A program made the translations under genes and the position numbers. Source: Sphingomonas sp. LM7 (lineage in GTDB: Bacteria > Pseudomonadota > Alphaproteobacteria > Sphingomonadales > Sphingomonadaceae). Taken from it: a DNA stretch of 64,000 nt. The stretch covers positions 2,232,001-2,296,000 of the forward strand of contig NZ_CP019511.1 in the NCBI RefSeq assembly GCF_002002925.1, given 5' to 3'. Positions 10,748 to 12,172 of the stretch are shown one piece after another (positions within the stretch are counted from its first letter, which is position 1; every line of letters begins with the position of its first letter). The notes beneath the pieces are model-generated. The model was not told the origin of the DNA. It ran no database searches and saw nothing but the letters and a program-made list of their open reading frames with translations.

Positions 10748-10920
10748 CCCGAACCCTTTCGATTTGGGTGCCTGATAGAGCATTTTCGAACCGGGTTCGC
10801 GGGCAAACCCGTGCGGCCTGCACCCGAAGGCCCCGCTGTCCACCGGCGATCCCGCTGAGGCGATCCGCCTTTTGAGCAAATATGGGAAATGATGCGGCAT
10901 CGGCCGCGGCGCGCCGAACG

Positions 10921-10951
10921 CAAAAGGGGACCGGCATTGCTGCCAGTCCCC
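10921..10951 (-). terminator. Intrinsic terminator of the structured RNA
   Basis: On the minus strand GGGGACTGGCA and TGCCGGTCCCC form an uninterrupted 11-bp stem (one U-G pair) closed by a GCAA loop and followed by TTTTG. On the plus strand the same stem has a C-A mismatch and no T-run, so it acts on minus-strand transcripts. Confidence 0.8.
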
Positions 10952-11198
10952 ATGTCACCGGACTTCGGCCTCTGATCCCGAAGGACCGCGGGGCCTGGTT
11001 TCGGCGGCATGCTCCACTCGCGCCGGCAAGGGCATGCGAGCTTTGCGTCGGTCACCGGGGCCGGTCGATCCGCCTGTTCCCGGAGAAACAGGCATTTTTC
11101 CCGGCCATCGGTGGCCCGCTTCATGATTTCACCCGAAGGCGAAACCATGGAGCCTTGCTGGCGACGATTTCCCGAGCGATCCATCGGCTCCGGCTTTC

Positions 11199-11393
11199 CG
11201 CTTGCGCGTTGGCCATCGCCCTGGGCTTCTCTCTTCGGGCCGATCCGTCGGTCGATCTGCCGCTTGCGCAGGCCCATCGGCTTCGGTCTCGTCCATCAGG
11301 CCGTTCCTTCGTCTCGACCGGCGCTTGCGCACTGATTCCGGCATCGGTTCCGCCCAGCTTCGGCGTCTCTCGAAATCGCCGCGACGCTTGCGC
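11199..11393 (-). repeat. Four GCGCAAGCG hairpin repeats at 61-63 bp spacing
   Basis: GCGCAAGCG on the minus strand (CGCTTGCGC on plus) occurs at 11199-11207, 11261-11269, 11322-11330 and 11385-11393. Each copy can form a stem with a GCAA loop; the longest is GCGATGC-GCAA-GCGTCGC at 11381-11398. Sequence between copies is only loosely conserved. Confidence 0.65.
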
Positions 11394-11619
11394 ATCGCCT
11401 TGTTTCCGCAACCACCGTCGCTCTCGTCTCCCCGTCCCGTCCAAGGTGGTTTCCCGAAGGCACCTGCACTCGTTCGAGCCGCGTAAGTGGTTGATCCTAC
11501 TTTGGTTTCCCGCTGTCGAACCGTCTTCCTTACAAGACAGATGCTGTCATCGATCCCGAGTCGCGCAAAGCATGAAATGCTGCCCCGTCCCTGTGGATAA
11601 CGTGAATAACGGGGACAGA

Positions 11620-12054
11620 TCAGCTCCGGGGCGGTTCCGGCGTCCATCCGGGTGGGGCAAGCTCAAAGCCGGAAAATTCGAAGCCAGGGACGACCACGCA
11701 GCTCGCCAGCGCCCAGCCGGAGCTTGCCTCGGTGGATTGCCAGCGATTCGCCGGCACCAGCCATTGGGGCGCATAGCCCCGGGTCACGTCGCCGCCAAGC
11801 CGGATCGTCGCGATCGCGCCGTCGTCCTGCTCGACCAGCAAGTCGAGCGGCGATCCCGCATGCCACAGCCACAACTCGGCGCCGTCAACGCGGTGCCAAT
11901 GCGAGCGCTGGCCGTCCTCCAGCAGGAAATGAATCGCAGTGCCGCCGGCGCGCGCGCCGTCCGCCGCCTCGGCGCGCCACGTCTCGCGATACCAGCCGCC
12001 CTCGGGATGCGGCGACATGCCGAGCGTGTCGATGATCGTTCGTGGAGCGTTCAT
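11620..12054 (-). CDS. Cupin protein (DUF985 family)
   Basis: A 144-residue single-domain cupin. Family-typical blocks are the N-terminal LGMSPHPEGGWYRETW, then AIHFLLEDGQRSHWHRVD with the metal-binding-type His residues, and VPANRWQSTE. Members resemble sugar epimerase-fold cupins, but most have no known reaction. The start is the ATG at 12054 (MNAPRT), because the longer frame upstream has no similarity and overlaps the promoter region of the next gene. It is followed on the same strand by the structured RNA candidate. Confidence 0.82.
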   Translation of the reverse strand: MNAPRTIIDTLGMSPHPEGGWYRETWRAEAADGARAGGTAIHFLLEDGQRSHWHRVDGAELWLWHAGSPLDLLVEQDDGAIATIRLGGDVTRGYAPQWLVPANRWQSTEASSGWALASCVVVPGFEFSGFELAPPGWTPEPPRS

Positions 12055-12172
12055 ATGGCGAATTCCAACCTCAGCTGAGCGGAACGTAGTTTTAGGTTCA
12101 TGAAACCCCGCGGCGCTGCGGGACGTTTCGCTACCGGTTTCTGCAACTAGAATCGATCTATGGGAGTCAAAC

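Follow-up and report, generated by a model that had tools for sequence, protein, structure and literature searches.

A large structured non-coding RNA gene of Sphingomonadaceae with candidate replication-timing sites in its control region

Does the DNA between positions 10921 and 11600 of a 64,000-nt window from Sphingomonas sp. LM7 (NZ_CP019511.1, positions 2,232,001 to 2,296,000) hold a large structured RNA gene on its minus strand, as a sequence-only reading had proposed, and what might such an RNA do? Coordinates below are those of the window, the whole stretch analysed. Conservation, covariation and the lack of a match in Rfam 15 support a minus-strand gene for a large structured non-coding RNA (ncRNA). 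Overall we propose, with a probability of roughly 0.6, that it is a free-standing Sphingomonadaceae gene whose product is coupled to replication or the cell cycle and acts in trans. Because positions 11541-11609 are promoter DNA and transcription is predicted to start at ~11534, the 5′ end does not lie near 11600, and the predicted RNA measures ~613 nt, not the 640-680 nt first estimated. Its parts are as follows.

10922..11534, minus strand: predicted transcript, ~613 nt; both ends predicted from promoter geometry, the start of covarying helix P1 and the terminator
11482..11534, minus strand: 5′ domain, helix P1 (11529-11534 with 11482-11487) around a GAAA-capped hairpin (11504-11512), defined by covariation
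11445..11464, minus strand: hairpin GGUGCC-UUCG-GGAAACC, with loop UUCG or GCAA depending on the species
11159..11444, minus strand: hypervariable middle with four GCGCAAGC hairpins, seen as GCTTGCGC on the plus strand at 11200, 11262, 11323 and 11386 (spacing ~62 nt)
10952..11158, minus strand: 3′ domain, made up of the next four elements
11149-11158 with 11007-11015, minus strand: closing helix, one-sided changes only
11109-11119 with 11045-11057, minus strand: inner helix, two-sided changes
11023-11032, minus strand: hairpin with loop CCCUUGCCGG, loop conserved and stem rewritten
11002-11006 with 10956-10960, minus strand: last helix, one-sided changes; a short helix inside it has two-sided changes
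10926..10951, minus strand: GNRA-capped hairpin of the intrinsic terminator, two-sided changes in 6 of 11 pairs over 66 distinct rows
10922..10925, minus strand: U-run of the terminator, from sequence

The individual hairpins named by the sequence-only reading are present where it placed them. The minus-strand terminator hairpin at 10926-10951 is there (11 bp, U4), as are those at 11072-11093 (9 pairs around a UCCG loop on the minus strand versus 7 pairs on the plus strand) and at 11381-11398 (minus strand, loop GCAA). The minus-strand stem at 11125-11146 is likewise present with its UUCG loop, but by eye it is only partly kept in close relatives.

Conservation was followed with two search models, R1, a sequence model of the first ~170 nt built from nine loci, and R2, a structured model built from 63 loci. 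R1 matched 98 of 201 genomes of the genus, at one place each, and 70 of these 98 carriers were fetched (loci L015-L084). Alignment A3 holds 63 of the 70; L052, L057, L061, L062, L063, L065 and L070 were left out, their third hairpin being unplaceable by the boundary rule. Across these 63 sequences the 16 pairs of the 5′ domain are formed in 87.4% of cells, and 14 of them show two-sided changes. Helix P1 is paired in 93% of cells, with two-sided changes in five of its six pairs. The covariation score of the domain is 0.430; sliding the partners yields no more than 0.087, and not one of 500 shuffles attains 0.430.

The 3′ end was analysed in alignment A4, which comprises 67 of 74 genus loci and used a terminator script that required an unbroken stem. 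Left out were five loci in which the script found no terminator, L023, whose terminator was identified by eye and contains a mismatch, L074, L081, L082 and L084, together with L072 and L075, where false terminators had been called. Over 66 distinct rows, the 20 pairs of 3′ domain and terminator are formed in 96.2% of cells, nine pairs show two-sided changes, and covariation is 0.319 against at most 0.097 with slid partners. The terminator is 100% paired by construction, because the rows were chosen for a perfect stem, and the 3′ domain was for that reason recounted without it. It is then paired in 91.6% of cells, with covariation of 0.238 (at most 0.068 with slid partners; 0.238 reached by 0 of 500 shuffles). 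Two-sided changes occur in three of the nine remaining pairs, a number that 465 of 500 shuffles also reach, and they are confined to the inner three-pair helix, with none in the six-pair closing helix. Among 13 close relatives of the window copy, the consensus has 102 pairs, 21 of them with two-sided changes; these include the helix 11109-11119/11045-11057, and the long helix closing the multi-branched 3′ domain has none. From DnaA box to terminator end, genus loci span 334-886 nt (two false terminators set aside).

In locus L003 (genome G030), the terminator hairpin is repeated in tandem just past the terminator.

The middle has a median length of 374 nt (121-577 nt) in 68 of the 71 loci and is shorter in the remaining three (L073, L079 and L114). 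In these 68 loci it contains CUUCGG 150 times against 10.4 expected (14-fold) and CGCAAG 133 times against 16.2 expected (8-fold). This excess of tetraloops in a hypervariable segment indicates that hairpins are kept and sequence is not. Sequence comparison thus shows a gene with a promoter region and a terminator that are both conserved, folded domains at the 5′ and 3′ ends of the RNA and, between these domains, a hypervariable hairpin array.

The assignment to the minus strand also held. The minus-strand RNA folds with z = -3.64, and none of 20 shuffles does as well, versus z = -1.40 and 3 of 20 for the plus strand. For 23 homologues, taken as every third of 67, z averages -2.25 in sense and -1.23 in antisense. 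Tetraloop bias across 71 transcripts agrees: on the sense strand CGCAAG occurs 177 times against 13 for its reverse complement, GGAAAC 152 against 1, and CTTCGG 212 against 78. The window's own copy has CGCAAG four times and its reverse complement not at all; its CTTCGG is unbiased (3 versus 4).

No known family accounts for this RNA. Nothing in Rfam 15 reaches its gathering threshold, either in the window or in 18 related loci, and with the cut-off relaxed to E = 10 the best sub-threshold match to the region has E = 1.6 (18 of 74.2 bits). RNase P RNA and tmRNA, whose hallmarks the sequence-only reading had not found, were excluded independently: the single RF00010 match of the window's genome (G000) lies elsewhere, at G000:C1:394373-394763 (0.394 Mb), and ARAGORN finds neither a tmRNA nor a tRNA gene in the window. 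A search of the open-licence literature, RNA-discovery papers included and preprints and most subscription journals outside its scope, found no report of it.

It is barely conceivable that the locus is instead a mis-called protein gene or an mRNA leader. Frames of 172, 177 and 398 amino acids (aa) do overlap it, but the two minus-strand frames searched have no Pfam match, and across 71 homologous transcripts the longest frame starting with ATG is anywhere from 0 to 220 aa, with no common long frame evident. AGGAGG is rare in the variable middle (5 versus 14.8 expected), and the RNA unit has its own terminator and a downstream gene that changes between loci. Covarying helices, a terminator and the lack of coding together place the locus, on comparative grounds, among structured ncRNA genes. 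The 398-aa frame (10882-12078, plus strand) spans the RNA gene and the Cupin_5 gene and is likely a chance frame in GC-rich DNA.

What might control this gene is suggested by the DNA in front of it, which contains the following elements.

11601..11609, minus strand: second, weaker DnaA-like box TTATTCACG, in homologues mostly TATCCACG
11592..11600, minus strand: strict DnaA box TTATCCACA, lying 58-66 bp ahead of the predicted start
11564..11569, minus strand: -35 element TTTGCG, its first two T invariant (63/63)
11558..11562, no strand assigned: GANTC (CcrM) site GACTC in the promoter spacer, at the same position in 61/63
11541..11546, minus strand: -10 element CAGCAT after a 17-nt spacer, with TGA in front; A2 and T6 in 63/63

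The 63 aligned promoters share the form TTnGnG, 17 nt, CAnCAT, preceded by TGA, and the start predicted from the -10 element falls on the first pair of P1, at ~11534. Every one of them has a GANTC, in the spacer in 61 and shortly downstream in the other two. Its middle base varies (55 GACTC, 6 GAATC) while GA-TC is constant. Within 48 nt around the core promoter, a GANTC is found in each of the 70 fetched loci; in L070, read by eye, it lies upstream of the -35 element. The strict box TTATCCACA is present in 35 of the 63 A3 rows and TTAT[CT][CA]ACA in 51, and the box is usually doubled. Such boxes are scarce elsewhere in the window's genome, with only two strict ones in 40 other 20-kb samples (800 kb), one of which precedes a CcrM-type gene. 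By sequence, the A3 rows therefore have the layout of a DnaA-controlled promoter, a DnaA box in a constant position ahead of the core. They also have that of a CcrM/GcrA-type promoter, a GANTC in the core in genomes that encode both proteins: of the genomes searched, 10 of 10 encode GcrA and 8 of 8 a CcrM-type protein with a RAMA domain. In Caulobacter, changing GANTC to GCNTC reportedly cut several GcrA-dependent promoters by 60-80% (PMC3667746). Input from DnaA and CcrM/GcrA to the predicted RNA promoter is thus probable.

Strict DnaA boxes also lie near GANTC in front of the CcrM-type gene at L236 (G000:C1:2703151) and at L222 (G030).

To see where else this motif pair occurs, the pattern TATCNACAGN{18,45}TTNNNNCGANTC, that is, DnaA box-gap-TT-CGANTC, was searched in the 201 genus genomes. 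It was found at 110 places in 107 genomes, against 3 places in 2 genomes for the reversed control. Seventy-seven places are of the RNA promoter type, all in R1-positive genomes; 26 are of an origin (oriC) type, of which the six read all lie just upstream of a gene that we take to be hemE; seven are elsewhere. The position upstream of hemE is the usual one for the alphaproteobacterial oriC (PMC8959179). With 77 and 26 of the 110 places so placed, the search returns mainly the RNA promoter and the origin position.

Is the RNA locus, then, itself the chromosomal origin? Its DnaA-like boxes and GANTC resemble those at the oriC position, but the rest of the evidence makes this extremely improbable. 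The oriC-type site stands upstream of hemE in genomes without the RNA. The exact parS 14-mer, present in 9 of 19 genomes, occurs once in G000, at ~9 kb from hemE; the RNA is 0.83 Mb away. GC skew over 40 samples of G000 fits an origin at 3.18-3.22 Mb best (r 0.69), with 0.62 for hemE and 0.30 for the RNA locus. In 19 of 19 closed genomes, the chromosome lengths of 8 being rounded and P values treating genomes as independent, the RNA and hemE are separated by 9.8-41% of the chromosome (median 20%). The RNA locus thus shares with the sphingomonad oriC position its DnaA boxes and GANTC and differs from it in that these motifs precede an RNA, elsewhere on the chromosome.

Several observations concern the origin region itself. 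DnaA boxes and GANTC upstream of hemE were seen in genomes without the RNA at L115-L119 and L124, and the 900 bp around hemE of G000 (L220) contain no canonical DnaA box. The best GC-skew fit is ~0.1 Mb from hemE and parS (3.07-3.08 Mb). In families f5 and f6 of the order, a DnaA box and GACTC precede not the RNA but a gene that is presumably uvrC-like (L177, L178 and L180).

How widely is the RNA distributed? A DNA search matched 10 of 61 genomes, the window's own included; the match in G032 (L009) was discounted as it sits in an apparent protein gene. R2 matched 59 of 296 genomes of the order, in 16 of 79 genera: 17 belong to the genus and 41 to the rest of the family, and a single one, G050, lies beyond the family and has two partial matches of 50-60 nt. 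Thirteen of the 41 non-genus family loci were read (L102-L114, seven genera), and all 13 are genuine, each with the same promoter layout and terminator type; the other 28 are mostly unread, and many R2 matches are short. The promoter pattern matched 43 of the 296 order genomes (reversed control, 3) and led to two further members, L181 and L188, the former in a genome without an R2 match. Its named carriers include Sphingomonas leidyi, S. mali, S. pruni, S. kyeonggiensis, Hephaestia caeni and Sphingobium boeckii (40 stretches, not individually read). Across 240 genomes of the class, R2 gave five matches, of which the window's is the only strong one and the other four are partial (28-45 nt); the one of these four that was read, L208, has DnaA boxes before a protein gene. 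So far, the RNA has been found only in Sphingomonadaceae.

The genes around it change. Of 30 genus loci, 25 have a glycine-zipper gene upstream of the RNA and 20 a Cupin_5 gene; downstream the gene is variable, an iron permease in 10 and a TRIC-type channel, by our own reading of the protein, in 4. None of five tested neighbours occurs within 1.5 kb in any of the 13 other-genus loci. Since its neighbours change, the RNA is not simply a leader or a 3′ untranslated region (UTR); it is an independent unit.

Selection might alternatively act on the DNA, with the locus serving as a DnaA-binding site that titrates or recycles DnaA and the RNA as a by-product. In E. coli, datA and DARS titrate or recycle DnaA. 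The DnaA-like boxes are conserved, the distance from hemE in the 19 closed genomes would suit such a site, and genome G124 keeps the boxes without the RNA: around position 1500 of L127 they stand directly before a TRIC-type channel gene, in an apparent empty site that reflects either loss or the ancestral state. Compensatory changes in the RNA helices and the terminator, however, need selection on the RNA, and the loci read have one or two boxes only. We consider this reading quite unlikely.

For the ncRNA gene proposed here, a mechanism can be outlined. DnaA bound upstream of the -35 element and a GANTC methylated by CcrM in the spacer, for which GcrA is the probable reader, would together time the onset of RNA transcription to replication and the passage of the fork. 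The RNA would then act in trans. A scaffold or sponge for proteins is its most likely role, since folded domains and tetraloops are what has been retained and the middle keeps hairpins, not sequence; a trans-acting, protein-binding role is offered tentatively. A bolder formulation, which we rate a little below even odds, is that of a family-wide, so far undescribed RNA class fired directly by the replication machinery through DnaA binding and GANTC re-methylation after fork passage. The RNA would be an RNA-level output of initiation, with folded ends as a binding platform and the hairpin array as an evolvable scaffold.

The main alternative for the trans step is base pairing through the conserved loop CCCUUGCCGG, which could pair with purine-rich ribosome-binding sites such as GGCAAGGG. 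This loop is retained in 33 of 71 transcripts on rewritten stems (for example GCTCGC/GCGAGT, GTTCCAC/GTGGAAC and GAGCAT/ATGTTC); 8 nt of it complement the probable ribosome-binding site of the CcrM-type gene in G000, and 6 nt, by our own reading, in G004. However, G030 carries the loop and has no match at its CcrM-type-gene site, the gcrA regions of four genomes and the hemE regions of two contain no complement to the loop, and 38 of 71 transcripts lack it. Base pairing is therefore a serious but unlikely option, and as a conserved mechanism, pairing between the CCCUUGCC loop and the CcrM-type gene (8 nt in G000, absent in G030) is unsupported.

About as improbable is a constitutive housekeeping scaffold for a ribonucleoprotein, with DnaA box and GANTC only modulating its dosage. 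The tetraloop-rich fold, the single match per genome and a transcription that would run with the replication fork in 17 of 19 closed genomes would suit such a role, which fits poorly with an RNA that is undetected in about half of the genus and strongly variable in length.

Several findings count against a replication-coupled RNA. Under strict filters, R1 has no match in 103 of 201 genus genomes. When 38 of these were searched again with R2 at E up to 0.1, nine matched, and of the five read only that in G003 (L126, ~0.4 kb) was judged genuine, with three of the rest at oriC-type places; one real copy in 38 implies that the RNA is dispensable for the genus. In G124, where boxes persist without the RNA, they may serve a separate function. 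No genome combines the oriC-type pattern with the RNA (0 of 26), a difference between clades. A strict sigma-70 scan finds no promoter at the RNA locus, and by our own count the -35 and -10 elements agree with the E. coli consensus at 6 of 12 positions; a poor match missed by the scan would, on the other hand, suit an activator-dependent promoter. The structures were drawn partly from the alignments in which they were tested, and the last two helices of A3 are flattered because rows that could not be placed were left out.

How does this RNA compare with known systems? CcnA of Caulobacter crescentus reportedly lies in the origin, is tied to CtrA and pairs with the 5′ UTRs of ctrA and gcrA (PMC8959179). 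As an alphaproteobacterial ncRNA tied to cell-cycle control, it is the nearest in wiring, an analogy of wiring and not of sequence. Unlike CcnA, the sphingomonad RNA does not lie at the origin in any of the 19 closed genomes. In four genomes, the upstream regions of gcrA, one of the two reported CcnA targets, contain no complement to CCCUUGCCGG. In layout, the sphingomonad RNA is further set apart by its DnaA-like boxes, GANTC and long covarying domains. EcpR1 of Sinorhizobium meliloti is described as a small trans-encoded RNA modulating cell-cycle progression (PMC4414408). It shares the alphaproteobacterial setting and the cell-cycle link and, by that description, differs in being small. OLE, GOLLD and ROOL are large bacterial ncRNAs of ornate structure. 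The sphingomonad RNA is like them in size class and ornate structure and differs in having no Rfam match, a range so far limited to Sphingomonadaceae, and a hypervariable tetraloop array.

Large structured RNAs of a new class seldom turn up in bacteria, and for most of them the function has yet to be worked out. The promoter of this one carries two marks that time replication in Alphaproteobacteria, which makes its input testable, and the genus, holding both carriers and genomes without a detectable copy, offers a natural experiment. If confirmed, the gene would extend the DnaA/CcrM circuit by an RNA output and provide a model for a long RNA that keeps its function while its centre turns over. 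With a control region bearing candidate replication-timing sites, this sphingomonad RNA may be tied to the bacterial cell cycle.
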